This document shows positions 9,206-64,000 of a stretch of 64,000 bases of DNA, piece by piece. The DNA is from Argopecten irradians (Eukaryota > Mollusca > Bivalvia > Pectinida > Pectinidae). Position 1 is the stretch's first letter, and the number at the start of each line of letters is the position of its first letter. The notes under the pieces are model-generated. The model saw only the letters and a list, made by a program, of their open reading frames with translations, did not search any database and was not told the origin of the DNA. The stretch is from the NCBI RefSeq assembly GCF_041381155.1, contig NC_091135.1:71576888-71640887 (forward strand). The letters run 5' to 3'. Both the position numbers and the translations under genes were made by a program.

Positions 9206-9552
9206 TCAGAATAACAACGCACATAATGTATTTGATTTATTATCTGTCTCTAATACGCCTGCATCGTCCATCCTGTTTTAAAATAGAGCTTTTAGAAAGG
9301 GATTAGCTATTGTAGAATGTAATAAAATGCATAACACTTATTTTTTCATCTACTTTCACGCGAATCTGACATAAATGTACAAGTCTACATGTACGATGAA
9401 AAAAAAATGATTAGATTCTTCTACTTGGTAGGTACAGATATTCATCATTGTCGGTATCAGTCGCAGGAAAACTACATGCATATAATAATGTTATGAAATA
9501 TACAAAAAACAATGCTGGCTGTATCCGTCACTTAAAACATTTATAATACAAC

Positions 9553-27451: not shown

Positions 27452-27650
27452 CACGGGTACAGTCAAGGATGTAAGTTATACACGTTGTATAGTACATATT
27501 TAGACAAAGATTTAATTTCTATATGTTGTATAGTATGGGTACAGCTAAGCATGTAAGTTATATAGGTTGTACAGTGCGGATACAGTCAGGGATGTAAGTA
27601 ATTTATGTTGTATAGTAAGGGTACAATCAGGGATGTAAATAATGCCATTC
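27452..27650 (-). repeat. Distal part of the reverse 41-bp minisatellite
   Basis: About five diverged units (CACGGGTACAGTCAAGGATG, ATGGGTACAGCTAAGCATG and so on) continue the array beyond the foldback element. Confidence 0.75.
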
Positions 27651-28045: not shown

Positions 28046-29697
28046 TTAGCCCACCATCATCAGATGGTGGGCTATTCAAATCGCCTTTCGTCCGTGGTCC
28101 GTCGTCCGTCCTTCCGTCCGTCCGTTAACAATTCTTGTTACCGCTACTTCTCAGAAAGTATGAAAGGGATCTTTTTCAAATTTGATCTGTAGGTTCCCCT
28201 AGGGCCCTAGTTGTGCATATTGCATTTTTGGACCGATCGGTCAACAAGATGGCCGCCAGGCAGCCATCTTGGATTTTGATAGTTAAAGTTTGTTACTGCT
28301 ATTTCTCAGAAAGTACCAAAGGGATCTGTCTCAAATTTCATTTGCAGGTTCCCCTAGGGCCCTAGTTGTGCATATTGTATTTTTGGACTGATCGGTCTAC
28401 AAAATGGCTGCCAGGCAGCCATCTTGGATTTTGAGAGTTAAAGTTTGTTACCGCTATTTCTCAGAAAGTACTGAAGGGATCTTTCTCAAATTTCATATGT
28501 AGGTTGCCCTAGGGCCCTAGTTGTGTTTATTGTATTTTGGGACTGATCGGTCTACAAAATGGCTGCCAGGCAGCCATCTTGGGTTTTGATAGTTAAAGTT
28601 TGTTACCGCTATTTCTCAGAAAGTACTGAAGGGATATTTCTCAAATTTCATATGTAGGTTCCCCTAGGGCCCTAGTTGTGCATATTGCATTTTTGGACCG
28701 ATCAGACAACAAGATGGCCACCAGGCCGCCATCTTGGATTTTGACAATTGAAGTTTGTTACCGCTATTTCTCAAAAAGTTATGAAGGGATCTGTCTCAAA
28801 TTTCGTGTGCAGGTTCCCTAGGTCCCTAGTTGTGCATATTGCATTTTGGGACCAATTGGCCAACAAGATGGCCTCCCGGCAACCATCTTGGATTTTGATA
28901 GTTAAAGTTTGTTACCGCTATTTCTCAGAAAGTAATAAAGGGATATGTCTCAAATTTTATGTGCATGTTCCCCTAGAGGTCTTGTTGTGCATACAGCATT
29001 TTCGGACTGATCGATGAACAAGATGGCCGACAGGCCGCCATCTTGGATTTTGATAGTTGAAATTTGTTACCGCTATTTCTTAGAAAGTACAGAAAGGATC
29101 TGTCTCAAATTGTATTTGAAGGTTCCTCTAGGTCCCTAGTTGTGCATATTGCATATTGGGACCGATCGGTGAACAAGATGGCCGACAGGCAGCCATCTTG
29201 GATTTTGGTAATTGAAGTATTATTACCACTATTTCTCAGAAAGTACTGAAATAATCTGTCTCAAATTTCATGTGCAGGTTCCCCTAGGTCCCTAGTTGTG
29301 CATATTGCATTTTCAGACCATTCGGTGGAAAAGATGGCCGATAGGCCGCCATCTTGGAATTTGATTATTGAAGTTTGTTACTGCTATTTCTCTGAAAGTA
29401 CTGAAACGATCTGTCTCAAATTTCATATTTAGGTTCCCCTAGGACCTTAGTTGTGCATATATATTGCATTTTGGGACCAATTGCTGAACAAGATGGCCAA
29501 CAGGTAGCCATCTTGGATTTTGATAATTGAAGTTTGTTACTGCCATATATCTCGGTAAGTAATGAAAGGATCTTTCTCAAATTTTATATGAAGTTTGTAG
29601 TAAAAGTTTGAAAAGCTGAGAAAAGATCCATCTTTCCATTGTCAGACGTAGATCATTCTTTGGTGGGCGCCAAGATCCCTCTGGGATCTCTTGTTTG
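28046..29697 (-). mobile_element. Helentron/pearl-like element with a ~155-bp tandem core (copy 2)
   Basis: On the minus strand it runs from CAAACAAGAGATCCCAGAGG to the hairpin AGCCCACCATC/GATGGTGGGCT and CTAA, the same ends as copy 1 at 4294-6282. It has about nine core units (palindromic AAGATGGCCGCC...GGCAGCCATCTTGG near 28250, 28402, 28558, 28713, 28867 and onward). The GTCCGTCC-type tract is next to the hairpin end. Copy number of the core differs from copy 1 (about nine versus eleven). Open frames within it are repeat artefacts. Confidence 0.65.
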
Positions 29698-30174
29698 TAA
29701 TAACATGTAGAGAGAAAAAGTTTACGCTTAAGATTATCTGCAAAAAATATTATTGGATGAAATCTGTGAAAAGAACTGTTAATGAGTTATAAGCATTTTT
29801 AAATTTTAAGATATGACGTCATAGCGGCCATTTTTTTTTCGCAAAATCAAAAAAATAAAAATTTGTGAACTTTGTGACCCCATAGCGAACTTTTTTTTTG
29901 ACCTTTGACCTAATTGCTGTAATTGAATAAAAGTTAGTCTTTTATACGATCTACATAAAACATCAAAAATATTTGCTGTATCTTAAACGGTGTTTGAGTT
30001 ATGGCTGTTTTAAACTTTGTAGGTATGACGTCATGGCGGCCATCTTGGATTTTTGACCTACTTAAAAATGTTGCGGTCACCCCTTCAACTCATGCCATAC
30101 AATATAACAATAAGGCCATTGGCATACTTCTTACCATTTTGAAGATCTTTTGGACACAAAAAAGTGTAGAATTA
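29698..30174. other. Non-coding stretch
   Basis: It contains a repeated ATGACGTCAT(A/G)GCGGCCAT motif at about 29813 and 30025, which resembles a CRE/YY1-like pair within a low-complexity repeat. No gene. Confidence 0.4.
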
Positions 30175-31665
30175 TTAACTTACATTATATATAATAATAA
30201 TAATAATAAAAATACTGTAAGAGATATCTTCATAATTCAAATTGTTCTGAAATCAGAACGATTTTTTAAGTGTTCCAGCAAAATTAATGTAGTGTAACTT
30301 ACTTACTTTTGGAGAAAATCGTCTTTTTGTGTCCCTATTTACCTGATACAAATTTTCACCTGGAAAGTCTTTATCACTACGGTGTTTATTCACGTTGAAA
30401 ACAAGCGTTCTGACGCCCTTCGCGGGTTAAGTTCATTTTACGAATTTAAAATCAATAAAAGGAGCGGAACAATATCAAGAAACAATGCTTTTTCAGCTCT
30501 AATATCGACATTAGTCGGGCACAAAACCCGATATCGGATAATAAGAATTTCCTGTAATAGTTGCAATAGGAAAATATTACGATGTCAGTAAATAAATGTT
30601 TAATTTCTTTCGTTTGATTCAATTTCTAAATTTGTTGACTTGATCCCCAACATTCCAGTGACGTCACTTTTAGTAGGAGTGAATAAAACAGCAGTCAGTC
30701 CCGCCAAACAGTGACGTCACAATCACCGGAATGACGTCGCTTACATAATTCTCACGGTAGTAAAAAGGAGTACACACTCATTCGGTTTAGTGAATGCAAC
30801 TTTTCTTGATCGTCAAAGAAGCGTTTCGCTTTGAGCGAAATCGTGTAAATAACAGACAATTTGTTTTCGTTTTGAATACCATCTTCTGTATGTATAATGA
30901 AAAAGTTACAGGATAAACAGAATACCCGGTAACTATCTTACAATACAAGTTTTATTTTGGTGTCGACAAGGAAAACAGAGATGACTCTGCAAAACCTTCT
31001 CATCTATCTCATCGCAAAAAACGATAGCAGCATCGATATTAATTATAGCAAACAAAAAATGTCCAACGTTGAAAATATTGCAAGTACATTCATTATTTAC
31101 ATAAACCAGTAATTAGAATAATCATTTATTTCATCTAGACTAAATAATTTGCGAATCCCATACACCGCCTGCAAGGAGACGACCTTGGCCTATCGCTACC
31201 CACGATGCTCTCGATCGTGGTCTTATATTATGTAACTTTTCATGGGATATTAAATCTAGATATATCTGTTTTCGACAGTTAAATTTCTATGAACATGTGT
31301 AAAACAAGCAGTCTCAACTGCTATTCCGAGGCCGTAAAATGCAATCTTGATCACCTCAGCCAAAACACAGGGGCACGCAAATTATGACAGAAACGTTTAC
31401 TAGTAATTTGATACGTATGTCATTTTAAAGTATTGGAGACCTTTTGATATGCACGTGTATATATCATGACGTTTCAAGTGGCTGCCCGTATTATTTTTTG
31501 TGAAAAATGAATTATATATATTATATATATGTTATAAAATTCGGTTAGCTTTTTTATTGTCGTTATTGTTATATACACTGTATGTGATATTTAAACGAAA
31601 ACACATATTTTACCTAAGAAGCCAATTATATGTATAATGTAAGTATCGGTTAGCTTGTTACTTAT
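30175..31665 (+). repeat. ~1.4-kb tandem unit, copy 1
   Basis: This unit begins with TACATTATATATAATAATAA. It includes ATCACTACGGTGTTTATTC, GCGTTCTGACGCCCTTCG, a CAGTGACGTCAC/ACGTCGC pair, AAGCGTTTCGCTTTGAGCG, CGCCTGCAAGGAGACG and a CCACGAT...ATCGTGG hairpin. It ends GTAAGTATCGGTTAGCTTGT. A full second copy lies at 39416-40770 and a split one at 31666-32145 plus 38950-39415. Open frames of about 70-98 codons are shared between copies but show no domain, so coding is doubtful. Confidence 0.7.
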
Positions 31666-32698: not shown

Positions 32699-33090
32699 CT
32701 ATTTTGTGAGGGCTTCAAGGGCTACGTTGGAAATATGTGCCTTGAAGTCCTCGAGTGTAGTGCATTGTACTGCTGCTACAGGGAGGAGATTCCATTGTGT
32801 TATTGTTTGTGGGAAAAATGAGTATTTGTATGTGTCCTTTGTAGCAGAGATTTGTCTGAAGCAGTGTGGATTGGAGTGTCTGGTTCTGTGGTCTACTGGT
32901 ATGAGTATGGTCTGGTATTTGACGGCAACTATATTGTGTATTATTTTGTAGAAAAGTATCAATCTTGTGTGTAGCCGTCGTGTCTGTAGTGTTGGCCAGT
33001 TGAGTTGATGTATCATGTTTGTAACTGAACTGGTGTCGTGATATTTGTTGTGAACATATCTTGCTGCTGCTCTGCGTGTGTGTTTTTTCT
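32699..33090 (-). pseudogene. C-terminal part of the RT protein of element 2, in a shifted frame
   Basis: The frame 33016-32699 (MIHQLNWPTLQTRRL...FFPQTITQWNLLP...LEALTK) is the conserved C-terminal region that follows the RT in CR1-like ORF2 proteins. It is out of frame with the upstream RT segment. The join lies in the A/AC-rich run at about 33075-33089, where a +1 shift restores the sense. It ends in TAG at 32699-32701. Confidence 0.7.
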
Positions 33091-34481
33091 ATCTGTTGAA
33101 TTTGGTGTGTGTTGTGGGGGTCCCATATGGAAGAGCAGTATTCCAGTTTGGGTCGAACTAGTGCTTTGTATGCGTGTGCTTTTATGTGTGGTGAATTAAT
33201 TTTTAAGTTGCGCTTTAAAAACCCTAGTGATCTGTTTGCATTTGCGGTGATATTATTTATGTGCATGTCCCATTTTAGTTTTTTTTGTAGTGTTAGTCCT
33301 AGATATTTGCTTGAGTTTACTTGCTCGAGTGTGTGATTGTGGAGTGTGTAGTTGTGGTGTATTTTGTTGCGTTTTGGTGTAACACTGATTATGTTGCATT
33401 TATCTGGGTGAAATTTCATTAGCCAGTCTGTTTCCCATTGTGCTGCTGCGTCCAGATCTTTCTGTAGTTTTATTGTGTCGTCTTTGTTGTTTATTGTTTT
33501 GTATATAATACTGTCGTCTGCGAATAATCTTAGTGTGCTGTACTGCATGTATTGATGGAAATCGTTAATGTATATGAGAAACAGAATTGGACCCAAACAT
33601 GTTCCTTGAGGGACTCCTGAAGTTACTTGTATTTTATTTGATTGTTTTCCCTCAAGTACTACTGTTTGGGTGCGTTGTGAGAGAAAGTCTGTGATCCATT
33701 TGTGTGTGTTGCCTGTTATGCCGTAGTATTTTAATTTGTATTGTAGGCGTTTGTGTGGGACTTTGTCAAAGGCTTTGGCAAAGTCCATGATAATAATGTC
33801 TGTCTGTTTGTTGCTGTTATTATTGTTTGCGAGGTCGTGTATGAATGTAGCAAGTTGTGTCTCGCATGATCTGGATGATCTGAAGCCGTGTTGTAAGTTG
33901 TATAATATGTTGTTGTTCTCCAGATGTGACATTGTGGCGCTTGTAATGATATGTTCCATGAGTTTGCATGTGATACAGGTGAGTGATATGGGTCTGTAGT
34001 TAGTGGGGTTGTATCTGTCGCCTTTCTTGTATATGGGGTTAACGTTTGCGTGTTTCCAATCTGTTGGTAATGTGCCTGTATTTATTAGTGAGTAAGTGAA
34101 AAGTTTGGTAAGTATGGGTGCTGTTATGTCCCTAAGTTCTTTTAGTAGTCTGCCGTGTATATTGTCTGGTCCTGTTGCTTTGTGTGGGTTGATGTTTTTG
34201 AGGAGGTTATCTATTCCTTGTTGTGTTATGTTTATTTCAGGCATGACTGGGTGTGGTGATGGTCCTTTATCTGGTATGGGGTGATCCTGTTCTGTTGTGA
34301 AGGCTGATTTAAATTGTTCATTTAGTATGTTTGCCTTACAAGTGGTGTCTGTCATTAGGTGTCCATCCTTTCTTAGTGCTGTGATATCTGTGTTCTCTTT
34401 TCTTGTTGTTTTGATGTATGAGAATAATTTTTTGGGGTTGTATTTTCTTCTTTTTTTGTGGTGACTCTTGTTGTTGCTCAT
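33091..34481 (-). pseudogene. Reverse transcriptase segment of non-LTR element 2
   Basis: This covers residues 1 to about 460 of the frame starting at 34481. RT motifs are NPHKATGPDNI, NYRPISLTCI (161-170), MDFAKAFDKVP (Asp233), SGVPQGTCLGP and LRLFADDS (Asp322-Asp323). All catalytic aspartates are present. The frame is offset by +1 from the upstream endonuclease segment, with the shift mapping to a T7 run (A7 on the sense strand) at 34451-34457. This fits a homopolymer indel. Downstream of residue about 460 the frame loses the family sequence, which continues in another frame at 33090-32699. Confidence 0.8.
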
Positions 34482-36192
34482 CTATTGGTAGGTCTTTTAT
34501 CATTTTTTCTATGTAGTTTAGATATGCATTTCTAGTGCGTTTTTGTAGTTCTGATTTGCATGCTTTGTATTTCTGTTTGAGCTCTTGGTCTTGTTTGTTT
34601 TTGTTCTGTACGTGTAATTTTTTACAATTCTTCATGAGTTGACGGATGGGTTTTGTTATCCATGGTAGTTTAGATTTGTATGTGATGTGTTTTTTTGGTA
34701 TGTTTTTATCTACTGAGTCATTAAGTGTGTTCTTAAAAAGGTTCCAGAGGTCATCTATTGTTTGGTTTGTTGGTTCGTCCAGTTTCGTGTTGATGTGGGT
34801 CAGGTCATTTCTAATATTGTCCCAGTTAGCTTTACCGTATAGGGGGATGTCCCTGGGCTGCTTCCTAATTTTCTTGAGTCGCACGTCAATTTCAGTGAAT
34901 ATGATGTCATGATCAGCTTTCCCTATGGGTGGTGATGTTTCAGTCTTGTTGACAATTGAAGGGCGGTTTGTTAGTGTTAGGTCAAGAATGTGGTCACCTC
35001 TAGTTGTGTTGGTAGTCATTTGTGTGAGAGAGTTGTCGTCTATGATATCAAGTAGCTGTTGGTGAAGTTTTGTGTCTGTTTTACCTGGAATTGTTGTGTT
35101 GTTTTGCCAATCTATGTGTGGTAAGTTGAAATCTCCGCTAATGAAAGTAATTGTGTTGTTGTTATGTCCTAGTCTTTTCATGGAGATTTCTAATTGGTCA
35201 AGTGAATGTCCTTTGTCTGAGGGTGGTCTGTAGTACGATCCTATTGTGAGGTTATGTGAGTTTGCCATGGAGATGTTGATGAAAATGGATTCGTTATCGG
35301 TGTCAAGTTCTTGAATTTGTTCTGAGCGGTATTTGTTTGTGACTGCAATTAGTACCCCCCCGTGACTTTGTCCCTTTTTATTCTGTTTGCGGTCTTTCCT
35401 ATATACTGTGTATTCTTGGATCGGGAAGTACTCGTAGGACGATGTTGTGTTGTTTAGCCACGTTTCTGTGCCTATGATGATGTCTGGTTTTAAGGAGTGT
35501 AGTATTTGTTCGAGGTCTGGTTTTTTGTTGGAGATAGATTGGAAGTTAATAGTTGCTATGCGGATTGGCTGGTTGAATTTATTTTTCCTAGTGACATCTT
35601 TGTTGTGTTTGATTGGAGAGGAGGATGCTGTAGGAGGTCCTGGGCTGGTGGGGATGTTCTGCGTGTTAAGGTCTGTATCCGTGTCTAGTTGTGAGAATCT
35701 ATTTGATGTATTTATACTAGTGTTGTTGTCAAATAGTGTAGATGAAAAGTTTGGTAGTCCGCACTGTATGCAATCCCAAGAGACTCCACTGTGGTCCATA
35801 TATTTGAGGAATGAAGGATTCATTCCTTGGCAGTCTACATGGTACCAGGTATTGCACGAATCGCAACATATAGCACTGGATTTCCACGTGACTGCCTTAT
35901 TGCAGGTACCACAGGGGTATCGTGGGGTTCTCGGACCAGGGTTGAGTTCTGTATCTGCAGATATTGAGAGTAGAAGAATGAATATGTATGTACAGCTGGG
36001 TTTAATTGTTTTATGTTTGAGTCTGTGAAGTAGAGATGGATATGCTGCCAGGTAGCAGTGAAGTTGTGTGTGGTCGTAGTTTTGGCTAGGCCTAGGGGAG
36101 AGATTGTGAAGTGTCGAGTGTTTTTTGTCTGTTTGGTGAGTTATCCAATAGGATAGGAGTGATATGGCTAGTGTAAGTGATGTAATCCTCAT
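34451..36192 (-). pseudogene. 5' part of the ORF of element 2: 2A-like motif, PHD finger, endonuclease
   Basis: From Met at 36192: a hydrophobic start (MRITSLTLAISLLSYW), then a second hydrophobic stretch leading into SADTELNPGP at residues 78-87, which fits the DxExNPGP 2A consensus. Next is a PHD zinc finger (Cys94, Cys97, Cys110, Cys113, His118, Cys121, Cys141, Cys144) and a Ser/Thr/Asn-rich linker. An endonuclease domain follows from about residue 209 (IRIATINFQSI, IIIGTETWL, ISGDFNLPHIDW and ADHD in place of the usual SDH). By analogy with known 2A motifs, ribosomes would skip the Gly86-Pro87 bond and release the first 86 residues separately. The frame leaves the family sequence at the homopolymer at 34451-34457, hence the pseudogene label. 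Confidence 0.8.
35932..35955 (-). other. 2A-like ribosome-skipping motif (DTELNPGP)
   Basis: The codons for Asp80-Thr-Glu-Leu-Asn-Pro-Gly-Pro87 match DxExNPGP exactly. The preceding hydrophobic stretch FILLLSISA agrees with the helical upstream context of active 2A peptides. It lies directly before the PHD finger, the same place where 2A-like motifs were reported in sea-urchin non-LTR elements. Activity is not shown by sequence alone. Confidence 0.75.
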
Positions 36193-36235
36193 TGTGTTTG
36201 CTGTATGTGGTTGTCTGTATGCGTAATGTTGTTTA

Positions 36236-36310
36236 CAACTAGGGTTGTATAGAGAAATAGAAACCGGAAGTTGTCAAGCGACGATGTGCAAGATGGCGGG
36301 AGATATAGAT
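36236..36310 (-). promoter_or_regulatory. ETS/YY1-like motifs in the 5' region of element 2
   Basis: On the minus strand CGCCATCTTG (YY1-like, near 36290) is followed by ACTTCCGGTT (ETS-like, near 36265), about 70-100 bases before the ORF start. YY1 sites near the 5' end direct start-site choice in mammalian L1, so a similar internal promoter is plausible here. Confidence 0.3.
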
Positions 36311-39415: not shown

Positions 39416-40770
39416 CTTGTAATAATAATTAACTTACATTATATATAATAATAATAATAAAAATACTGTAAGAGGTTTCTTCATAATTCCAATTGTTCTG
39501 TAATCAGAACGATTTTTTTAGTGTTTTAGCAAAATTAATGTAGTGTAACTTAGTTACTTTTGGAGAAAATCGACTTTTTGTGTCCCTATTTCCCCTATCC
39601 AGATATTCACTTTTGCCATACTTGGAAGGTCTTTATCACTACGGTGTTTATTCCCGTTGAAAACAAGCGTTCTGACGCCCTTCGTGGGTTAAGTTCATTT
39701 TACGAATTTAAAGTCAACAAAAGAAGCGGAACAATATCAAGAAACAATGCATTTTTAGCACTAATATCGACATTAGTCGGGCACAGAACTCGATACCGGA
39801 TTATAAGAATTTCCTGTAATATATGCAATAAGAAAATCTTACGATGTCTGTAAATAAATGTTTAATTCTTTCGTTTCATTCAATTTCTAAATTTGATGAC
39901 TTGATCCCGAACATTCCAGTGACATCACTTTTAGTAGGAGTGAATGAAACGGCAGTCAGTCCCGCCAAACAGTGACGTCACAATCACCGGAATGACGTCG
40001 CTTACATATTCCCCACGGTAGTCAAAAGGAGTACACACTCATTCGGTTTAGTGAATGCATCTTTTCTTGATCATCAAAGAAGCGTTTCGCTTTGAGTGAA
40101 ATCGTGTAAATAACAGGCAATTTGCTTTCGTTTTGATTACCATCTTCTATATATATAATGAAAAAGTTGCAGGATAAACAGAATACACAGTCACTATCTT
40201 ACAATACAAGTTTTATTTTGGTGTCGACAGGGAAAACCGAGATGACTCGGCAAAACCTCTTCATCTCATCTCCTCGCATAAACGATAGCAGCATCGATAT
40301 TAATTTTAGCAAAATAAAAATGTCCAACGTTGGAAATATTGCAAGAACATTAATTATTTACATAAACCAGTAGTAAGAATAAACATTTATGTCATCTAGA
40401 CTTAATAATTTGCAAATTCCATACACCGCCTGCAAGGAGATGTCCTTGGCCTATCGCTACCCACGATGCTCTCGATCGTGGTCTTATATTATGTAACTTT
40501 TTAAGGGATATTAAATCTAGATGTAACTTTGTTCAACAGTTAAATTTCTATGAACATGTGTAAAACAAGCAGTCTGAACTGCTATTCCGAGACCGTAAAA
40601 TACAATCTTGGTCACCTCAGCAAAAACACAGGGGCACGCAAATTATAAAACTCGGTTAGCTTTTTTATTGTCATTATTGTTATATACACTGTATGTGATA
40701 TTTAAACGAAAACATATATTTTACCTAAGAAGCCAATGATATATATAATGTAAGTATCGGTTAGCTTGTA
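39416..40770 (+). repeat. ~1.4-kb tandem unit, copy 3
   Basis: This is an uninterrupted unit matching 30175-31665 throughout, including GCGTTCTGACGCCCTTCG, the CAGTGACGTCAC/ACGTCGC pair, AAGCGTTTCGCTTTGAG and the GTAAGTATCGGTTAGCTTGT end. It lacks about 140 bp found near 31384-31525 in copy 1. Confidence 0.7.
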
Positions 40771-43914: not shown

Positions 43915-46305
43915 AGACTGGGTTAATTATCGGTGATCAGGTAGCTCAGTCGGAAGAGCTACATTTTCTTCTCTCTCCTGTTACAGAATTGGCACCCAAC
44001 TAAATAACCAACGGTTGTAGTGTTTGAAAGGGTTTCGTATGTATTCAAAAAAGGAGGGAGGAGTGTAGCGGGACTGGGCTGCGTCGATTATCGATGACCA
44101 GGTAGAGCACGGTAGAGCACTCAGCTAGTGTTCGGAGAGTCCCGGGATCAATTCCCGGTCTTGCCGCTATATTTTCTCCTATCCTGTTACATATGGTACC
44201 ATACTGTGCATGTAGATATTCAAGGTAAATCAACAATGTTCGCTGATCTTGCAGAATTGTTTTACAGTGTTATAATGAATGCAGTAAATGTATGTCTCAT
44301 TAGGTGTGATTGATTTAAAGGCAGTTCATGTGGTGACCGAAAAAAAGGTAAAATCAATACATTGATAGTCAAGGCGGGGAAAACATAAGACGACCTGTGT
44401 TATACAAATTAATGTTTAATTGATTTTCATTAAATTGTCTCGAAGGTGATGATTAGTGTGTTATGAACGATAAGCTTAATATGTTTTTGACAAAAAATAT
44501 AAACAGCTAATGTCATATTGTGTTTTAAATTTAAATAATCTTTTATTTATTCATTTCATTTCAAGCATGTACATGTCATAGAATATAAACAAATATCAGG
44601 TATATGCTTAAATCATATTACAGTTAAATTCACAATAAGGAATTTGAAGATGATGATAGTAATTTTTTCGGATTGAAAATGATTACAATATTAAGCTTCC
44701 ACAGTTGAAAATTACTTCTTTTTGTTCACACAATTCTTCTCCTAGACTGTTTCCAGTTGAAATGATACATGCATGCTGACATTCTGTAAAACATAAGGAA
44801 ACAATAAATGTGTTAACAGATTAATTACTGAAAAGGCTAATATCATATAATTAAACATTTTAATCATAAATACCAATACCAGCATAGAGGAAATATTATT
44901 GAAGTTTAATTCCCGCTGTTCTTCAGTCCTCCTGTTCTAACATGTAAGAGTTTTGTCCTTCATAAATTGATTGTAATATACAGTCTATAGCAGTTGTTAT
45001 ATAATGTGCACAAAGAAGTATAAATACACACGTATGCATGGGTACAGTGTGGTAAATTAATGAGTTATACAGAAAATCATGGTGCTGATCATGAAAAGCG
45101 TAAAGTCTATTTTGTTGAGTAAAAAGTTAAAAAAAAACTAACATTGTTCACACCCTAAGGTGTAATCGCACTAAAAACAGCGATCATGTGGGCTTTTGTG
45201 CGATTGCATTTGTAAGACTGTGCCAGGTGGTAGAGATTAGTTCCGCTCGAGTGATCACACAATGCAAGTGAGAGTCGGGAATATGTTTATTTTGCTAATC
45301 TCTGATGCTTGTTGGTAAAATATAACTCAGGATAATTGCTAAACAATTCACAATTAATTTCTCTACATTTGTTACAGATTGAAACAGCTTTTTAAGTGGC
45401 GTTTTACGGAAGAATTATGAAAAAGAAATCGGCATTTTCGTCGATCTAGTAGTCCAAAAAATATCACTTCGAGTTATATGAACATTCCATATATGATTTA
45501 TGTCATTCGGCCAAAAATTTTACTTCGTATTACCCAGTTTAATGAATATGCTGTATGTATATGATCAGAACGTCAAGCTCCTGTGGTGAAAATAACTAAA
45601 ATGTTTTAAAAGTATGGTTTAGTGGTAATCTCTGAACGTACTTTAGTATATGGATATAATCTGATATTTATACATGTGCTTATAAAATTATCGATAATTA
45701 TGGATGTGGTAAATATTCATACCTTATTAACTGCCGTTAGTTTTAAGATTACGCCACCTTGGACATCTACAAAATGTTCACCGTCTGTCACGTACTATTT
45801 TATCATTAGACCAAGTTTGTCCAAAATTTTGTTAGAGTTGTCTTTCTTCCATTGTAGTTCCGGAGGAAGGCCATGTGCCATAACACAGCCGTGATAAATA
45901 TTTGCTCCGAGACAAATTTGATTCAAATTACAAAATTCATTAAGGTATCAATTTTGATGTTCGAGGTGAAATATTGATTTCATTTTTTCCGTTGCGGGAT
46001 AACTGTCACTAATAGGGAGTAAACGACTGGGGGGAACCAGCTTCGGAGCGAAGCATTTTTGGGACGAAACGTCTTCATTTATTGTAAACACCATTTTGGG
46101 ACCGAAAAGTCTAGATACTTTGTAAACAATTTAAGTGAAAATTTTCAAACAGAAGATCTTTTGGATAGTGTATATAATAAGGATATAAAAGCCGTAATAT
46201 ACTATTCCTATTTCAACGTTACAGATACGCTTATATCGGTAACTTTCATATTCAAAATTTGCTATTTAAATTCCCGGTAAAATCAAAGTTGTTGAATACA
46301 CTGCC
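43915..46305 (+). repeat. Left arm of a 5.4-kb imperfect palindrome
   Basis: From AGACTGGGTTAATTATCGG inward to GGTAAAATCAAAGTTGTTGAA, the sequence matches the reverse complement of 46816-49304, with scattered substitutions and small indels. The divergence (for example around 45160-45290 against 47940-48065) shows a real, ageing inverted duplication, not a sequencing chimera. The arm carries a tRNA-like module but no protein gene. Long-armed foldback transposons have this shape. No target duplication was verified. Confidence 0.8.
44066..44169 (+). other. tRNA-like module 2
   Basis: Nearly identical copy of the module at 43211-43314, with GATCAATTCC as the B-box-like element. It lies within the left palindrome arm. 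Confidence 0.5.
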
Positions 46306-46815
46306 GCTAGGAGCGCTAGTATCTGCGAGCAATTTCTAAGCCAATCATATTGAGGAAATTGACTGTAAGAGAATTTTGCAACCACGATCACAATAGCGAG
46401 GTAACCCTCGCCAAAAAGTATCTTGTTGGCGAGGGTCACCTCGCCATTGAGGAAACTGACCTGTAAGAGAATTTTGCAACCACGATCACAATAGCGAGGT
46501 GACAATTGTATCATGTTGACTACTATGGCAAATCATCAATAAAAGACAGTTAAAACTAATATATAACTACTCGAATTGTTTCAAGATATTGCGTTTTACA
46601 TTAGTTAAGTATATTAACATGTGGTAAGGTATTCAAACAAATGCGAGCTATTTCTAAGCCAATCATATTATTGACTGTAAGAGAATTTTGGAAATTGACT
46701 GTACTTTTTGGACGAGAATTTTGCAACAGCACGATCAACGCCCTTCCTCAATGGCGACCCTCGCCAACAAGATTTGGCGAGGGTTTACCTCGCCAACAAG
46801 ATACTTTTTGGCGAG
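46306..46815. repeat. Palindrome centre with nested GCGAGG inverted motifs
   Basis: The spacer holds GGCGAGGGT/ACCCTCGCC and CTCGCCAACAAGATAC motifs in both orientations and two copies of ATTTCTAAGCCAATCATATT...GACTGTAAGAGAATTTTG (about 46330 and 46650). It is a scrambled set of short inverted and direct repeats, non-coding. Confidence 0.6.
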
Positions 46816-49304
46816 CAGTGTATTTCAACAACTTTGATTTTACCGGGAATTTTAAATATTAGCAAATTTTGAAATATGAAAGTTACCGATATAAGCGTAT
46901 CTGTAACGTTGAAATAGGGAATAGTATATTACGGCTTTTTATATCCTTTATTATAACTTATCCTATCCCCAATCCTCGTCTTCTGTTTGAAAATTATTTC
47001 ACTTAAATTGTAGTTTGTTACAAAGTATCTAGACTTTTCGTCCCAAACATGGTGTTTACATCAAACTGAAGACGAAGACGTGTTCGTCAAAAATGCTTCG
47101 CTCCGAAAGCTGGTTCCCCCCCAGTACGTTTACTCCCTATTAGTGACAGTTATCCCGCAACGGATCTTTTCCCAAAAAAATGAAATCAACCATAAAGTTT
47201 TTCACCTCGAACATCAAAATTGATTACCTTAATGAATTTTGTAATTTGATCAAAATTTGTCTCGGAGCAAATCATTATTTATCACGGCTGTGTTATGGCA
47301 CATCATGGCCTTCCCTCCGGAACTACAATGGAAGAAAGACAACTCTAACAAAATTTTGGACAAACTTGGTCTAATGAATAAAAAGTACGTACCCTGTCTT
47401 ATGACAGACAGGTGAACATTTTCTAATAGATGTCCAAGGTGGGCGTAAATTGCTTAAATACTAATCGGCAGTTTTTCATAAGGTATGAATATTTACCACA
47501 TCCAATAATTATCGATATAATTTTATAAGCACATGTATAAATATCAGATTATATCCATATACTAAAGTACGTTCAGAGATTACCACTAAACCATACTTTT
47601 AAAACATTTTAGTTATTTTCACCACAGGAGCTTGACGTTTGATCATAACATACAGCATATTCATTAAACTGGGTAATACGAAGTAAAATTTTTTGGGCCG
47701 AATGAATAAATCATACTATGGAATGTCATTATATGGTTCATTATAGACTCGAAGTGATATTTTTTTGGGACTACTAGATCGACGAAAATGCCGATTTCTT
47801 TTTCATAATTCTTCCGTAAAACGCCACTTAAAAAGCTGTTTCAATCTGTAACAAATGTAGAGAAATTAATTGTGAATTGTTTAGCAATTATCCTGAGTTA
47901 TATTTTACCAACAAGCATCAGAGATTAGCAAAATAAACATATTCCCGACTCTCACTTGCATTGTGTGTGATCACTCGAGCAAACTAATCTCTACCACCTG
48001 GCATTGTCTTACAAATTGCAATCGCACAAAAGCCACATGATCGCTGTTTTTTTTTAGTGCGATTACACCTTAGGGTGTGAACAATGTTAGTTTTTTTTTA
48101 ACTTTTTACTCAACAAAATAGACTTTACGCTTTTCATGATCAGCACCATGATTTTCTGTATAACTCATTAATTTACCACACTGTACCCATGCATACGTGT
48201 GTATTTATACTTCTTTGTGCACATTATATAACAACTGCTATAGACTGTATATTACAATCAATTTATGAAGGACAAAACTCTTACATGTTAGAACAGGAGG
48301 ACTGAAGAACAGCGGGAATTAAACTTCAATAATATTTCCTCTATGCTGGTATTGGTATTTATGATTAAAATGTTTAATTATATGATATTAGCCTTTTCAG
48401 TAATTAATCTGTTAACACATTTATTGTTTCCTTATGTTTTACAGAATGTCAGCATGCATGTATCATTTCAACTGGAAACAGTCTAGGAGAAGAATTGTGT
48501 GAACAAAAAGAAGTAATTTTCAACTGTGGAAGCTTAATATTGTAATCATTTTCAATCCGAAAAAATTACTATCATCATCTTCAAATTCCTTATTGTGAAT
48601 TTAACTGTAATATGATTTAAGCATATACCTGATATTTGTTTATATTCTATGACATGTACATGCTTGAAATGAAATGAATAAATAAAAGATTATTTAAATT
48701 TAAAACACAATATGACATTAGCTGTTTATATTTTTTGTCAAAAACATATTAAGCTTATCGTTCATAACACACTAATCATCACCTTCGAGACAATTTAATG
48801 AAAATCAATTAAACATTAATTTGTATAACACAGGCCGTCTTATGTTTTCCCCGCCTTGACTATCAATGTATTGATTTTACCTTTTTTTCGGTCACCACAT
48901 GAACTGCCTTTAAATCAATCACACCTAATGAGACATACATTTACTGCATTCATTATAACACTGTAAGACAATTCTGCAAGATCAGCGAACATTGTTGATT
49001 TACCTTGAATATCTACATGCACAGTATGGTACCATATGTAACAGGATAGGAGAAAATGTAGCGGCAAGACCGGGAATTGATCCCGGGACTCTCCGAACAC
49101 TAGCTGAGTGCTCTACCGTGCTCTACCTGGTCATCGATAATCGACGCAGCCCAGTCCCGCTACACTCCTCCCTCCTTTTTTGAATACATACGAGACCACT
49201 ACAACCGTTGGTTATTTAGTTGGGTGCCAATTCTGTAACAGGAGAGAGAAGAAAATGTAGCTCTTGCGACTGAGCTACCTGATCACCGATAATTAACCCA
49301 GTCT
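46816..49304 (-). repeat. Right arm of the 5.4-kb imperfect palindrome
   Basis: Reverse complement of the left arm, ending at AATTAACCCAGTCT. Only one copy of the outer 850-bp segment is present on this side. Confidence 0.8.
49059..49162 (-). other. tRNA-like module 3
   Basis: Inverted copy of the modules at 43211 and 44066, within the right palindrome arm. Same B-box-like sequence as module 2. Confidence 0.5.
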
Positions 49305-53845: not shown

Positions 53846-53972
53846 CTAGTTCATGTGATTTCCACGTCCCCAGTTATGATGCTCGTTGCCATCATCTTGT
53901 TGCTGTCGCCGACTTGAGGGCGCCATTCCGAAGCCAGACACACCCCCTTGTCTGTTGGGTAGATATTTGTAC
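53846..53972 (-). CDS. DERL1: Derlin-1-like protein, last coding exon
   Basis: After the acceptor TTTTTATGTTCAG the exon encodes YKYLPNRQGGVSGFGMAP...HHNWGRGNHMN and a TAG stop. RGGVSGFG and the HNWG(x)G tail are hallmarks of Derlin-1. The end keeps an aromatic-Gly-x-Gly-x-x-hydrophobic pattern (WGRGNHM), the SHP box by which Derlin-1 recruits p97/VCP. Derlins are rhomboid pseudoproteases of the ER membrane that form part of the ERAD retrotranslocation channel; this exon supplies the cytosolic tail. It joins the previous exon in phase 2 (TT|G gives Leu). The family assignment is firm. Derlin-1 over Derlin-2/3 rests on GGVSGFG and the tail. Confidence 0.9.
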
Positions 53973-54315: not shown

Positions 54316-54426
54316 AATATATTTGGAACTGTAAGAAAGCGTGATCCTCCAAAGTCTTGTGGGTATTTAAACATTAAAAAGAAGTACAAGTGGCCAACAA
54401 GTATTCCAAGAAGTTCCGAGATTCCT
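54316..54426 (-). CDS. DERL1: Derlin-1-like protein, penultimate exon
   Basis: Acceptor TTTCTCTCTGCAG, donor ATT|GTAAGT. The 111 bases encode GISELLGILVGHLYFFLMFK followed by YPQDFGGSRFLTVPNI(L). This is the most conserved Derlin block, ending the last membrane segment and starting the cytosolic tail (compare the GNLVGHLYFFLMFRYP pattern of animal Derlin-1). Phase agrees with both neighbours. Confidence 0.92.
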
Positions 54427-54707: not shown

Positions 54708-54760
54708 CCTTGGCCCAATATCATGTTGAATGCGAGCAGAACCCAAGGTAGGTACATTGC
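54708..54760 (-). CDS. DERL1: Derlin-1-like protein, 53-bp exon
   Basis: Acceptor TTCTATGTTCTCAG, donor AAGG|GTATGT. It encodes AMYLPWVLLAFNMILGQG, the YLPW(V)...FN membrane segment of Derlins. Exact phase continuity with the exons on both sides (…FGTQFK|AMYLPW and GQG|GISELL) supports the splice sites. Confidence 0.9.
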
Positions 54761-55069: not shown

Positions 55070-55168
55070 CTTAAACTGTGTTCCAAACCAGAACTGTACA
55101 ACTGTTTCTTTGTTTAGCTGACACCAATATATATATAGTACACTCAGAACCATGGGGTCCATCAATAA
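55070..55168 (-). CDS. DERL1: Derlin-1-like protein, exon next to the minisatellite
   Basis: The 99 bases (33 codons, phase 0 at both ends) encode LLMDPMVLSVLYIYWCQL followed by NKETVVQFWFGTQFK. The WxQLN...FWFGT(Q/R)FK pattern is diagnostic of Derlins. The acceptor is TTTCTGTTGTAG|TTATTG and the donor AAG|GTTGGT. The first 30-odd codon bases and the acceptor are identical to the unit of the adjoining 71/72-bp array, and this is the only copy that continues into the rest of the exon. An extra TAT codon (YIYW, where array units read YIW) sits exactly at the array breakpoint. Confidence 0.9.
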
Positions 55169-58100
55169 CTACAACAGAAATCATTCAGTCTTTATCAACC
55201 ATATATATAGTACACTCAGAACCATGGGGTCCATCAATAACTACATCAGAAATCATTCAGGCTTTATCACCATATATATAGTACACTCAGAACCATGGGT
55301 CCATCAATAACTACAACAGAAATCATTCAGTCTTTATCAACCCATATATATAGTACACTCAGAACCATCAGTCCATCAAAACTACACAGGCTTATCAACC
55401 AAATAAGTACACTCAGAACCATGGTCCATCAATAACTACAACAGAAATCATTCAGGCTTTATCAACCATATATATAGTACACTCAGAACCATGGGGTCCA
55501 TCAATAACTACAACAGAAATCATTCAGGCTTTATCAACCATATATATAGTACACTCAGAACCATGGGGTCCATCAATAACTACAACAGAAATCATTCAGG
55601 CTTATCAACCATATATATAGTACACTCAGAACCATGGGGTCCATCAATACTACAACAGAAATCATTCAGGCTTTATCAACCATATATATATAGTACACTC
55701 AGAACCATGGGGTCCATCAATAACTACAACAGAAATCATTCAGGCTTTATCAACCATATATATAGTACACTCAGAACCATGGGGTCCATCAATAACTACA
55801 ACAGAAATCATTCAGGCTTTATCAACCATATATATAGTACACTCAGAACCATGGGGTCCATCAATAACTACAACAGAAATCATTCAGGCTTTATCAACCA
55901 TATATATAGTACACTCAGAACCATGGGGTCCATCAATAACTACAACAGAAATCATTCAGGCTTTATCAACCATATATATAGTACACTCAGAACCATGGGG
56001 TCCATCAATAACTACAACAGAAATCATTCAGGCTTTATCAACCATATATATAGTACACTCAGAACCATGGGGTCCATCAATAACTACAACAGAAATCATT
56101 CAGGCTTTATCAACCATATATATAGTACACTCAGAACCATGGGGTCCATCAATAACTACAACAGAAATCATTCAGGCTTTATCAACCATATATATAGTAC
56201 ACTCAGAACCATCAGGTCCATCAATAACTACAACAGAAATCATTCAGGCTTATCAACCATATATATAGTACACTCAGAACCATGGGGTCCATCAATAACT
56301 ACAACAGAAATCATTCAGGCTTTATCAACCATATATATAGTACACTCAGAACCATGGGGTCCATCAATAACTACAACAGAAATCATTCAGGCTTTATCAA
56401 CCATATATATAGTACACTCAGAACCATGGGGTCCATCAATACTACAACAGAAATCATTCAGGCTTTATCAACCATATATATAGTACACTCAGAACCATGG
56501 GGTCCATCAATAACTACAACAGAAATCATTCAGGCTTTATCAACCATATATATAGTACACTCAGAACCATGGGGTCCATCAATAACTACAACAGAAATCA
56601 TTCAGGCTTTATCAACCATATATATAGTACACTCAGAACCATGGGGTCCATCAATACTACAACAGAAATCATTCAGTCTTTATAATTATCAACCATATAT
56701 ATAGTACACTCAGAACCATGGGGTCCATCAATAACTACAACAGAAATCATTCAGGCTTTATCAACCATATACATAGTACACTCAGAACCATGGGGTCCAT
56801 CAATACTACAACAGAAATCATTCAGTCTTTATAATTATCAACCATATATATAGTACACTCAGAACCATCAGGTCCATCAATAACTACAACAGAAATCATT
56901 CAGGCTTTATCAACCATATATATAGTACACTCAGAACCATGGGGTCCATCAATAACTACAACAGAAATCATTCAGGCTTTATCAACACCATATATATAGT
57001 ACACTCAGAACCATGGGGTCCATCAATACTACAACAGAAATCATTCAGGCTTTATCAACCATATATATAGTACACTCAGAACCATCAGGTCCATCAATAA
57101 CTACAACAGAAATCATTCAGGCTTTATCAACCATATATATAGTACACTCAGAACCATGAGGTCCATCAATACTACAACAGAAATCATTCAGGCTTTATCA
57201 ACCATATATATAGTACACTCAGAACCATGGGGTCCATCAATAACTATAACAGAAATCATTCAGGCTTTATCAACCATATATATAGTACACTCAGAACCAT
57301 GGGGTCCATCAATACTACAACAGAAATCATTCGGGCTTTATCAACCATATATATAGTACACTCAGAACCATCAGGTCCATCAATAACTACAACAGAAATC
57401 ATTCAGGCTTATCAACCATATATATAGTACACTCAGAACCATGGGGTCCATCAATACTACAACAGAAATCATTCAGGCTTTATCAACCATATATATAGTA
57501 CACTCAGAACCATGGGGTCCATCAATACTACAACAGAAATCATTCAGGCTTTATCAACCATATATATAGTACACTCAGAACCATGGGGTCCATCAATACT
57601 ACAACAGAAATCATTCAGGCTTTATCAACCATATATATAGTACACTCAGAACCATGGGGTCCATCAAATACTACAACAGAAATCATTCAGGCTTTATCAA
57701 CCATATATATAGTACACTCAGAACCATGGGGTCCATCAATAACTACAACAGAAATCATTCAGGCTTTATCAACCATATATATAGTACACTCAGAACCATG
57801 GGGTCCATCAATAACTACAACAGAAATCATTCAGGCTTATCAACCATATATATAGTACACTCAGAACCATGGGGTCCATCAATACTACATCAGAAATCAT
57901 TCAGGCTTTATCAACTATATATATATAGTACACTCAGAACCATCAGGTCCATCAATACTACAACAGAAATCATTCAGGCTTATCAACCATATATATAGTA
58001 CACTCAGAACCATGGGGTCCATCAATACTACAACAGAAATCATTCAGGCTTTATCAACCATATATATAGTACACTCAGAACCATGGGGTCCATCAATAAC

Positions 58101-61100
58101 TACAACAGAAATCATTCAGGCTTTATCAACCATATATATAGTACACTCAGAACCATGGGGTCCATCAATACTACAACAGAAATCATTCAGGCTTTATCAA
58201 CCATATATATAGTACACTCAGAACCATGGGGTCCATCAATAACTACAACAGAAATCATTCAGGCTTTATCAACCATATATATAGTACACTCAGAACCATG
58301 GGGTCCATCAATAACTACAACAGAAATCATTCAGGCTTTATCAACCATATATATAGTACACTCAGAACCATGGGGTCCATCAATAACTACAACAGAAATC
58401 ATTCAGGCTTTATCAACCATATATATAGTACACTCAGAACCATGGGGTCCATCAATACTACAACAGAAATCATTCAGGCTTTATCAACCATATATATAGT
58501 ACACTCAGAACCATGGGGTCCATCAATACTACAACAGAAATCATTCAGGCTTTATCAACCATATATATAGTACACTCAGAACCATGGGGTCCATCAATAA
58601 CTACAACAGAAATCATTCAGGCTTTATCAACCATATATATATAGTACACTCAGAACCATGGGGTCCATCAATACTACAACAGAAATCATTCAGGCTTTAT
58701 CAACCATATATATAGTACACTCAGAACCATGGGGTCCATCAATACTACAACAGAAATCATTCAGGCTTTATCAACCATATATATAGTACACTCAGAACCA
58801 TGGGGTCCATCAATACTACAACAGAAATCATTCAGGCTTTATCAACCATATATATAGTACACTCAGAACCATCAGGTCCATCAATAACTACAACAGAAAT
58901 CATTCAGGCTTATCAACCATATATATAGTACACTCAGAACCATGGGGTCCATCAATACTACAACAGAAATCATTCAGGCTTTATCAACCATATATATAGT
59001 ACACTCAGAACCATGGGGTCCATCAATAACTATAACAGAAATCATTCAGGCTTTATCAACCATATATATAGTACACTCAGAACCATTGGTCCATCAATAA
59101 CTACAACAGAAATCATTCAGGCTTTATCAACCATATATATAGTACACTCAGAACCATGGGGTCCATCAATACTACAACAGAAATCATTCAGGCTTCATAC
59201 CATATAATATAGTACACTCAGAACCATGGGTCCATCAATACTACAACAGAAATCATTCAGGCTTTATCAACCATATATATAGTACACTCAGAACCATGGG
59301 GTCCATCAATAACTACAACAGAAATCATTCAGGCTTTATCAACCATATATATAGTACACTCAGAACCATGGGGTCCATCAATACTACAACAGAAATCATT
59401 CAGGCTTTATCAACCATATATATAGTACACTCAGAACCATGGGGTCCATCAATAACTACAACAGAAATCATTCAGGCTTTATCAACCATATATATAGTAC
59501 ACTCAGAACCATGGGGTCCATCAATAACTACAACAGAAATCATTCAGGCTTTATCAACCATATATATAGTACACTCAGAACCATGGGGTCCATCAATAAC
59601 TACATCAGAAATCATTCAGGCTTTATCAACCATATATATAGTACACTCAGAACCATGGGGTCCATCAATACTACAACAGAAATCATTCAGGCTTTATCAA
59701 CCATATATATAGTACACTCAGAACCATGGGGTCCATCAATAACTACAACAGAAATCATTCAGGCTTTATCAACCATATATATAGTACACTCAGAACCATG
59801 GGGTCCATCAATACTACATCAGAAATCATTCAGGCTTTATCAACCATATATATAGTACACTCAGAACCATGGGGTCCATCAATACTACAACAGAAATCAT
59901 TCAGGCTTTATCAACCATATATATAGTACACTCAGAACCATGGGGTCCATCAATACTACAACAGAAATCATTCAGGCTTTATCAACCATATATATAGTAC
60001 ACTCAGAACCATGGGGTCCATCAATACTACAACAGAAATCATTCAGGCTTTATCAACCATATATATAGTACACTCAGAACCATGGGGTCCATCAATAACT
60101 ACAACAGAAATCATTCAGGCTTTATCAACCATATATATAGTACACTCAGAACCATGGGGTCCATCAATATACTACAACAGAAATCATTCAGGCTTTATCA
60201 ACCATATATATAGTACACTCAGAACCATGGGGTCCATCAATAACTACAACAGAAATCATTCAGGCTTTATCAACCATATATATAGTACACTCAGAACCAT
60301 GGGGTCCATCAATACTACAACAGAAATCATTCAGGCTTTATCAACCATATATATATAGTACACTCAGAACCATGGGGTCCATCAATAACTATAACAGAAA
60401 TCATTCAGGCTTTATCAACCATATATATAGTACACTCAGAACCATCGGGTCCATCAATAACTACAACAGAAATCATTCAGGCTTTATCAACCATATATAT
60501 AGTACACTCAGAACCATGGGGTCCATCAATAACTACATCAGAAATCATTCAGGCTTTATCAACCATATATATAGTACACTCAGAACCATGGGGTCCATCA
60601 ATAACTACAACAGAAATCATTCAGGCTTTATCAACCATATATATAGTACACTCAGAACCATGGGGTCCATCAATAACTACAACAGAAATCATTCAGGCTT
60701 TATCAACCATATATATAGTACACTCAGAACCATGGGGTCCATCAATACTACAACAGAAATCATTCAGGCTTTATCAACCATATATATAGTACACTCAGAA
60801 CCATGGGGTCCATCAATAACTACAACAGAAATCATTCAGGCTTTATCAACCATATATATAGTACACTCAGAACCATGGGGTCCATCAATACTACAACAGA
60901 AATCATTCAGGCTTTATCAACCATATATATAGTACACTCAGAACCATGGGGTCCATCAATAACTACAACAGAAATCATTCAGGCTTTATCATATATATAG
61001 TACACTCAGAACCATGGTCCTCAATACTACATCAACCATATATATAGTACACTCAGAACCATGGGGTCCATCAATACTACAACAGAAATCATTCAGTACT

Positions 61101-61256
61101 AGTTATCAACCATATATATAGTACACTCAGAACCATGGGGTCCATCAATCTACAACAGAAATCATTCAGGCTTTATCAACATATAATAGTACATCAGAAC
61201 CATGGGGTCATCAATACTACAACAGAAATTATTCAGGCTTATCAACCATATATACC
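55128..61256 (-). repeat. 71/72-bp minisatellite made of the Derlin intron-exon border, about 85 copies
   Basis: On the minus strand each unit reads TTGATAAAGCCTGAATG, ATTTCTGTTGTAG (3' splice site), then TTATTGATGGACCCCATGG and TTCTGAGTGTACTATATATA, which codes for LLMDPMVLSVLYI of the Derlin exon. A 71-bp variant lacks one A of AATAAC (plus strand). Interior units are nearly identical. The edges (55261-55440 and 60990-61256) are degenerate. Linked variants (ACCATCAGG with CAGGCTTATC at about 56210, 57367, 57942 and 58868; TTTATAATTATC at about 56678 and 56830) indicate multi-unit block duplication. Because 72 is divisible by three, long spurious frames run along the plus strand. Confidence 0.95.
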
Positions 61257-61424
61257 TCATGGGGTTAATTAGCAAGCTTTATAAAACTAAGGGTCCATCA
61301 ATAACTGAAATCATTCAGTCTTTTCAAAAATATACAATGTTATCAACTTCCAACGTAGATTTCGCCTATAAATAATAAGTCCAATTATCTTAACAAACAT
61401 GTTAAGGAAAAAAATATATAACTA

Positions 61425-62261: not shown

Positions 62262-62356
62262 ATTAGATTGTAAACCACAACAAAAGGATACAACAAGTGA
62301 TAGCCAGTTGAAGAGTAACAAGAAGGCATATTCAGCAGGCTTTCCAGCAAAGATAC
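62262..62356 (-). CDS. DERL1: Derlin-1-like protein, most upstream exon seen
   Basis: After the acceptor TTTTTATAATTGCAG the exon encodes (G)IFAGKPAEYAFLLLFNWLSL followed by VV, matching the Derlin segment G(A/I)F...(K/R)PA(D/E)Y.F.LLFNW at the start of a central membrane helix. The donor is uncertain. AAT|GTAGGA at 62262/62261 gives a loop of about the expected length (VSFCCGLQSN before LLMDP) and keeps phase 0. GTT|GTATCC further upstream also keeps phase but would shorten the loop by ten residues. Earlier exons (N-terminal helices) were not found up to the window end. Confidence 0.75.
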
Positions 62357-63266
62357 CTGCAATTATAAAAAGAGTAAGTATAGTTCTAAGTAAATAGTCT
62401 AATGATATAACATTTCTCATATCATAAGGACTAAAAAATGACATTAGGAGTACTAGTATGGTTTATGAGTGGGGGATTATGTGACTGTAGTGATACACAT
62501 ATAGCATCCCAAAATTACAGCTTCATCAATCTTCATCCATGGCTGGGAATGTACATAATATATCTTAAACAAAGATGAATTTCTCGCAATATTCAGTTAA
62601 TAAGAAGATAATTTTTTTTTGTTAGCTATGTAGTTAGATCAAATCATGTGTTGAGTAAAATGTAATCTATTCTTTTCCTATATAGCTAGCTAGCAATAAT
62701 CAACAAGAGACTCAAAGGCCGATCATCTGGCAGACTTTGCCCCATTTGAACAGAAAAAGAATTACGGTAAACCTTTGGTTAGTTCGAACAAAATTAATTA
62801 GATATTGATGGACCAGTTCAAATTATCCAAAGTTAATCGTCGGGAAAAAATTGTGTGTTTGAACTATCTGCCGGTTTACCATAAATATGGTGGTTTTTTT
62901 CATGATGGTGACTTTGTTTGGTGTACATCTCTGGTTTTCTATGACAGTAGATCATCATAACCCTTTACTGCTGTTGAACCCTATCTGTGAACGACGAAAG
63001 TACTATACTGTAGCAAGTGTACATTGTACTGAATGAAGTGACGCAACAAGATAGTCGCGTCCCACTCACCCTAAGGTGACGATGGTTGGCTGAACTTGAA
63101 GTATGCAGAGTTGAAAATAATTTAAGTCTTATTTGCTGAATCAGCTGAACATTGTGGCTACGCTACAAAAGCATGTCAGAAGAATAAATAAACAAATAAA
63201 TGCAATAAATCTGGTTATGTTCTTGTTTTTTTTTATTTAAACATATCCACATTGCTCAAAAAAGCG
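62357..63266. other. Intronic/non-coding stretch
   Basis: No upstream Derlin exon or other gene could be recognised on either strand. A GCTAGCTAGC microrepeat lies at about 62685. Confidence 0.4.
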
Positions 63267-64000
63267 TCAAAAATAGGAATTGGGAATATCAAGTGCATTG
63301 ACAACAGCATGCTCAGTAAATTCAGAAAGGAAACGAGGATCTGAATGAAGACAATATCTCATTGTCTGAAAAACACATTCAGTAACGTTGTACTGAGGGC
63401 TATAAGGAGGCTGAAAAACTAATGAAATTCCATGATTGTCTCACATTCTCTTCAATATTTGTTCTCCTTGGTGATGGTGGCAAGACCCGCAGTTGTCCAT
63501 GATGATAGCGTCACCCCTTGAAAATTTTGGATTCCCTATGTCATTTGTCTTTAGCAAGCTTCATCGAAAAAAAATTTCATTTCAAAAGCGTAGATGGTCC
63601 ATTAATAATATTATAATGATCTTTTCCAAAATAGCTGCATCATACATTAACAGTAAGGCTGGCATTGCTAGCGTAGCACTGCATCTCTACAGCCCTCGTA
63701 CCCACAACACTATGTCCATACGTACCGTTTCCAGAGGTTGAAATTGCCTCATCAAAGAAATGCATCTGCCGTAGAGTGTAACTCATCATCTTGGCCAAAA
63801 ACCTGATAACAGTATCATCATGATTTCAGTGTTTCTTCAGGAGTTTGTTGAATTCTTTTGTGCGACATGTCCCAGAAGTGTTTAATAACGTTATTTATTT
63901 TGGATACCGACAGAACATTTTCGGCAGTACAGATATTATTTCTCAGGTCTCCTTGAATTTCCCGACAGTAAATACTATTATGGTTTTTAGCAGAGATTCC
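63267..64000 (-). pseudogene. Decayed DDE-type (IS630/Tc1-like, DDE_3) transposase, runs off the window
   Basis: The minus strand reads first a helix-turn-helix-like part (YCREIQGDL...AENVLSVSKINNVI). After stops and frame changes come MHFFDEA, NGTYGHSVVGTRAVEMQ, GDAIIMDNCGSCHHHQGE and GISLVFQPPYSPQYNVTECV, ending with HAVVNALDIPNSYF and a stop at 63267-63269. FDE, MDN and the NVTE position give the DDE triad of this superfamily, and PPYSPxxNxxE is its signature. At least four in-frame stops make it inactive. It belongs to a multi-copy family common in marine invertebrates. Confidence 0.7.

Follow-up and report, generated by a model that had tools for sequence, protein, structure and literature searches.

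What becomes of a gene when one of its own splice junctions is copied scores of times within a single intron, and how might the spliceosome find the right copy? This question is raised by the minus strand of a 64,000-nucleotide (nt) stretch of the Argopecten irradians genome (C2:71576888-71640887 of an 846-Mb assembly; "the window" below means this whole stretch). Here an intron of the Derlin-1 gene holds a minisatellite composed of the end of that intron and the beginning of the exon that follows. An earlier sequence-only reading of the same DNA had proposed that a module of acceptor plus exon start was amplified from the Derlin exon, and the analysis below bears this out. The two features at the centre of the question are:

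55169..61320, minus strand: mirage-type minisatellite of 86 tandem copies (~72 nt), with decoy acceptors from 61304 to 55240, delimited by Tandem Repeats Finder and by acceptor cutting.
55070..55168, minus strand: the true exon B of Derlin-1 (LLMDPMVLSVLYIYWCQLNKETVVQFWFGTQFK; length 99 nt, phase 0), with donor AAG/GTTGGT and, where its (TA)n meets the edge of the array, one additional Tyr codon.

The term mirage comes from amphioxus, where minisatellite-like tandem copies of intron-exon boundaries are known in Adh3 and globin (PMC3087553). The suggestion that nothing of this kind had been described does not hold, as amphioxus mirages are in print (PMC3087553; PMC3902484). We propose that the Derlin-1 array is a mirage expansion, neutral or mildly harmful, which is tolerated and not used, only the last acceptor having a whole exon and a donor behind it. 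We would give this proposal a probability of roughly 0.68.

Each unit consists of the 3' end of the intron, including a branch-like TTGAT, then TTTCTGTTGTAG and the first ~41 nt of exon B. Read on the minus strand over the interval 61304-55169, the intron end is GGTTGATAAAGCCTGAATGATTTCTGTTGTAG and the exon start that follows it is TTATTGATGGACCCCATGGTTCTGAGTGTACTATATATAT. Tandem Repeats Finder reports a 72-bp period at 55129-61031, with edge pieces out to 61254. Cutting the sense strand at each aligned acceptor (by a pattern that requires AG) yields 87 acceptors: 86 decoys between 55240 and 61304 plus the true acceptor, at 55168. The array of about 85 copies ending at 61256 that had been noticed before is therefore real, with its count corrected to 86 decoys and the start of its outermost, degenerate unit moved to about 61320. 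The 86 intervals measure 72 nt in 40 cases, 71 in 25, 70 in six, 73 in five, 74 in two and 78 in two; six further lengths, within 50-88 nt, occur once each. Since the longest interval is 88 nt, no unit lacking its AG is hidden in this series.

The resemblance of unit to exon, on which the sequence-only reading had staked its case, is present on alignment. The last 14 nt of the intron are the same as at the real site in 74 of the 86 decoys and the last 20 in 73; on the exon side the first five nt agree in 48 decoys and the first 38 in 38. After the AG, 35 of the 86 decoys (55240-61304) start with TATT and not TTAT, nearly all through loss of one T at that point. The TATT form has spread through the array, irregularly mixed with the full-length form, and is a record of exchange within it. 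The average distance from the consensus is 1.25 edits for the 76 interior units, 13.8 for the five distal units and 5.8 for the five nearest the exon. The interior is homogenised, as had been said, and the edges are neglected, which is the usual pattern of tandem-repeat turnover. As far as sequence can tell, the array fits three features of mirages: it is tandem and minisatellite-like (period 72, 86 copies), its unit spans a predicted exon-intron boundary of the host gene, and its edge units escape homogenisation.

Could the array be a product of the assembly? A short array might have been inflated, or the extra Tyr codon and the 7-nt insertion discussed below might be sequence errors, and there is a precedent in that one amphioxus mirage appears to be aberrantly assembled in the draft genome (PMC3087553). 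The array, however, contains 31 unit types in irregular order (the identical copies number 32 at 72 nt and 17 at 71 nt), an arrangement not easily made by simple misassembly, and the locus sits in a 73-Mb contig. We regard an artefact as quite unlikely.

A branch-like site is indeed part of the unit, though not the CTGAATG first proposed; a better candidate is TTGAT, found 26-27 nt before the AG in 77 of the 87 acceptors and, at any distance, in at least 80 of them (counted over the five commonest classes). A typical decoy, the one that was scored, has the same pyrimidine content as the true site. What the copies do not offer is a way out: GTAAG, GTGAG and GTRAGT are all at zero in the array, and most copies are without a consensus donor. 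When a decoy is entered from the phase 0 upstream exon, the frame runs into a stop before exon B is complete in all 86 cases, most commonly after 19 codons (40 decoys) or after one (35). Only the real acceptor, one of 87, is open through exon B in that phase. Both the stops and the uniqueness of the acceptor nearest the gene had been anticipated.

One might then suppose that the array is a regulator, decoy use leading to nonsense-mediated decay and copy number tuning the output of Derlin-1. The AG present in 86 of 86 decoys, and the premature stop in as many, would suit such a role. Yet homogenisation alone keeps an AG: of the 30 substitutions in the 76 interior units, chance would place less than one on the two AG bases. 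Selection on the decoy AG therefore leaves no visible sign, the number being too small to tell. In amphioxus, moreover, data on Adh3 and reverse transcription polymerase chain reaction (RT-PCR) on globin suggest that mirages leave regular splicing undisturbed, according to the account in PMC3087553. Regulation by decoys seems to us very improbable.

Other functions were considered and rejected. Stepwise removal of the intron, which the sequence-only reading had offered as a possible solution, is unlikely because no unit acceptor is AG/GT, as recursive splicing through ratchet sites would demand; the single AGGT in the 6136 nt of the array, at 61257, lies outside the unit acceptors. A cluster of mutually exclusive exons, or any coding role, is not compatible with the missing GTRAGT donors and the stop in each copy. 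RNA structure that hides the decoys finds no support either: about five units, taken as one piece of 358 nt, are no more stably folded than their shuffles (z -0.98, with 17 of 100 shuffles at least as stable), and the real site has the same sequence.

How sound is the gene around the array? Its remaining exons in the window are:

62262..62356, minus strand: Derlin-1 exon A (GIFAGKPAEYAFLLLFNWLSLV...), with a weak ancestral donor GTT/GTATCC after 62292 and its best donor, AAT/GTAGGA, after 62262.
54708..54760, minus strand: Derlin-1 exon C (AMYLPWVLLAFNMILGQ-G).
54316..54426, minus strand: Derlin-1 exon D (GISELLGILVGHLYFF...), ends counted by hand.
53846..53972, minus strand: Derlin-1 last coding exon E, ending in TAG, ends counted by hand.

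Judged by its predicted protein, the host gene is Derlin-1. The joined exons match the Pfam family DER1 (PF04511, E 4.8e-36), and their best match among 718 is the derlin-1-like protein of Mizuhopecten yessoensis (P0001), at 84% over 161 residues; 120 of the 718 matches were used in the homolog comparisons. The 33 residues of exon B have four PDB matches, three of them Derlin-1 chains and the fourth a designed repeat protein. Two further exons are found upstream, outside the window: exon 1 at C2:71650345 to 71650187 and exon 2 from C2:71647158 down, 94% and 95% identical to M. yessoensis. By reading, the other exons are open and their phases match. Upstream of exon A, at 63200-64000 (minus strand), the Derlin-1 intron contains interrupted reading frames that, by eye, look like a DDE transposase.

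Searching the assembly at the protein level produced eight matches. Six fall within the Derlin-1 gene described here (exon B at 86%, exon D at 92%, exon E at 77%, the rest running into introns). The other two, at 34% and 39%, are on C9 and presumably represent another Derlin. Among the best candidates, which are what such searches score, the 846-Mb assembly showed no second Derlin-1. A DNA search with exon B and its border, scored in the same way, gave 84 matches, all at the locus, with no copy of exon or unit elsewhere; nor did the DNA search find a second haplotype in this one assembly. Since protein and DNA searches alike gave no second copy, the gene described here is probably the only Derlin-1 of the assembly. 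The idea that we are looking at a dead duplicate is not supported by these best-candidate searches, which returned neither another Derlin-1 nor another copy of exon B or the unit.

One exon is damaged in this assembly, and this is an addition to the earlier observation that makes the locus more interesting. Homologs have nine residues, e.g. IIGLIGEIF, between NWLSLV and LLMDPMV. The length of this segment is equal in 118 of the 120 aligned homologs, the exceptions (P0006 and P0044) both being shorter; P0044 is without exactly these nine residues, as expected of a gene model that skips a microexon. In the window we find:

61355..61388, minus strand: relic of a 27-nt Derlin-1 microexon (IIGLI...GEIY) with a 7-nt frameshifting insertion; its score is reached by 0 of 400 simulations.
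61305..61354, minus strand: the putative 50-nt remainder of the short intron that originally separated microexon and exon B, judged from the anatomy of the locus.

Read from 61388 to 61355, the relic is ATAATTGGACTTATT (IIGLI), seven extra nt and GGCGAAATCTAC (GEIY). It scores 34 against a best of 28 among 400 first-order simulated sequences of its intron, and no other site on the two strands of the window equals it. Because the relic sits 50 nt from the first degenerate unit (61304), we infer that the original intron was about 50 nt long and that the array grew inside it. At its present 34 nt the microexon shifts the frame, and with it retained none of the 87 acceptors is open through exon B.

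Scored with a generic donor matrix, exon A reaches -2.2 at its ancestral donor and the microexon -2.5 at its own, while AAT/GTAGGA, 30 nt downstream of the former, gives 5.1, close to the 5.2 of the exon B donor. Reading exon A on to 62262 yields an open replacement, VSFCCGLQSN, one residue longer than the segment of relatives. We scored 443 frame-preserving paths through the middle exons. The most relative-like (score 276) passes through an 11-nt piece of the old microexon and keeps the segment length exactly, at the cost of poor scores at two donors (-3.2 and -2.5). Going directly from 62262 to exon B is less relative-like (250) and has the best donor, at 5.1. From this a further suggestion can be made, which is tentative and which we rather doubt: the minisatellite may have rebuilt the exon structure. 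Expansion of the intron from 50 nt to 6 kb would have made the 27-nt microexon unspliceable, the microexon would have decayed, and exon A, extended by 30 nt, would have replaced nine residues (IIGLIGEIF/Y) with ten (VSFCCGLQSN). If correct, Derlin-1 has here a rewritten segment adjoining the conserved LLMDPM motif, in a gene that looks single-copy, and the locus may be showing how a minisatellite forces the loss of a microexon.

The extra Tyr codon of the true exon B, at the (TA)n edge of the array, has no counterpart in any of the 120 aligned homologs. Most array units encode LYIW, a length as in homologs and without that codon, so they probably derive from the exon as it was before the codon was gained.

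The same lesions invite a darker explanation, that the array has crippled the gene, leaving the sole Derlin-1 found hypomorphic or in the course of loss, with the distant Derlin paralog covering for it. The microexon insertion, the weak ancestral donors and the unmatched Tyr would all fit, as would the Derlin-like locus on C9. So would some divergence elsewhere, exon E being just 77% identical to M. yessoensis and exon A differing at 3 of 22 residues. This has to be set against the other exons, which are open with matching phases and of which exons 1, 2 and D stand at 94%, 95% and 92%, and against the existence of a frame-preserving path from exon A, read to 62262, into exon B. We consider a crippled gene improbable.

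A tolerated mirage could have arisen as follows. The first step would be a tandem duplication joining the (TA)n/TGG stretch of the exon to the GTTGATA stretch of the ~50-nt intron. Unequal exchange or slippage would then have multiplied the junction to 86 copies and made the intron ~6.2 kb long. By exon definition, the spliceosome would match the donor of the true 99-nt exon to the last acceptor of the series; this is the simplest way of choosing because only that acceptor precedes the rest of the exon and a donor. Wrongly chosen copies would bring early stops and decay of the RNA. Expansion probably destabilised the surroundings as well, with the frameshifted microexon probably skipped and exon A read to the donor 30 nt downstream.

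Several points weigh against this account. Correct splicing at the locus is an assumption of ours. Counted back from the donor of exon B, the nearest decoys are at 171, 241 and 312 nt, distances short enough for exons themselves, so that exon definition by itself does not distinguish the last copy from them. That donor is also weak: on the generic matrix it scores 5.2, and the donors of exons C and D score 7.3 and 7.1. Finally, the frameshifted microexon and the extra codon could mean a failing gene and not tolerance.

Several other repeats and open frames of the window can be recorded. A 1-kb stretch at 26455-27450 is palindromic, with 90% identity between it and its reverse complement. Arrays of a 41-bp minisatellite flank it on both sides, at 25630-26437 and at 27447-27638, and their unit appears inverted at 9546-10862 (matched by eye). 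Inverted copies of about 2.4 kb at 43915-46307 and 46811-49304, 94% identical and some 500 bp apart, resemble a large foldback element. A 155-bp tandem array occurs twice in opposite orientation (4401-6181 and 28135-29590, ~82-87% identical), and a direct repeat of about 1.2 kb lies at 30170-31385 and 39424-40646 (91% identical). Long open frames at 19216-22686 (plus strand) and 32718-36273 (minus strand) look by eye like proteins of long interspersed nuclear element (LINE)-type retrotransposons.

How does the Derlin-1 array compare with what is known? The closest likeness is to the mirage of the amphioxus globin BflGb6, whose unit, in the account of PMC3087553, likewise joins the 3' end of an intron to the 5' part of the next exon and whose cluster edges stand outside homogenisation. 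There the two haplotypes have 6 and 3 units of 150-160 bp, in contrast to 86 of ~72 bp here, and the host is a cephalochordate and not a mollusc; RT-PCR is reported for BflGb6, whereas the Derlin-1 array is known from genome sequence. The Adh3 mirages (Canestro 2002, as cited in PMC3087553) are also minisatellites across an exon-intron boundary, with units of 10-72 bp. Length and somatic instability are reported for them, while ours is a single assembly. In lancelet PGBD5 and troponin C, PMC3902484 describes tandem repeats that include splice sites, without aberrant mRNA; those of PGBD5 (60-bp and 3 x 108-bp) are imperfect and far fewer in copies than the Derlin-1 array.

Human genes supply more distant parallels. 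In G1P3/IFI6 (Turri 1995) a minisatellite supplies several splice donors (PMC4526556), so that a splice site is multiplied there too; the sites are donors and the repeat units are used as such, where the Derlin-1 array has acceptors. The variable number tandem repeat in ABCA7 intron 18 has a 25-bp unit that holds a splice site, and its length affects splicing (PMC5954066); again the unit is donor-type. In segmental duplications, internal tandem repeats at exon-intron boundaries alter gene structure and splicing, averaging 4 units of 30 bp, and they are treated as exon change or intron formation (PMC2812944). For scallops or other molluscs a literature search turned up no boundary minisatellite, which is not proof of absence.

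With 86 near-identical 3' splice junctions beside the true one, which alone is followed by the rest of its exon, the locus amounts to a natural competition assay for acceptor choice. It carries the mirage phenomenon to a mollusc, at a size well above the amphioxus globin and PGBD5 cases and in what is apparently the sole Derlin-1 of its assembly. The mollusc host, the 86 copies and the damaged neighbourhood are new with respect to the precedents; the array itself is a large example of a phenomenon that is not.

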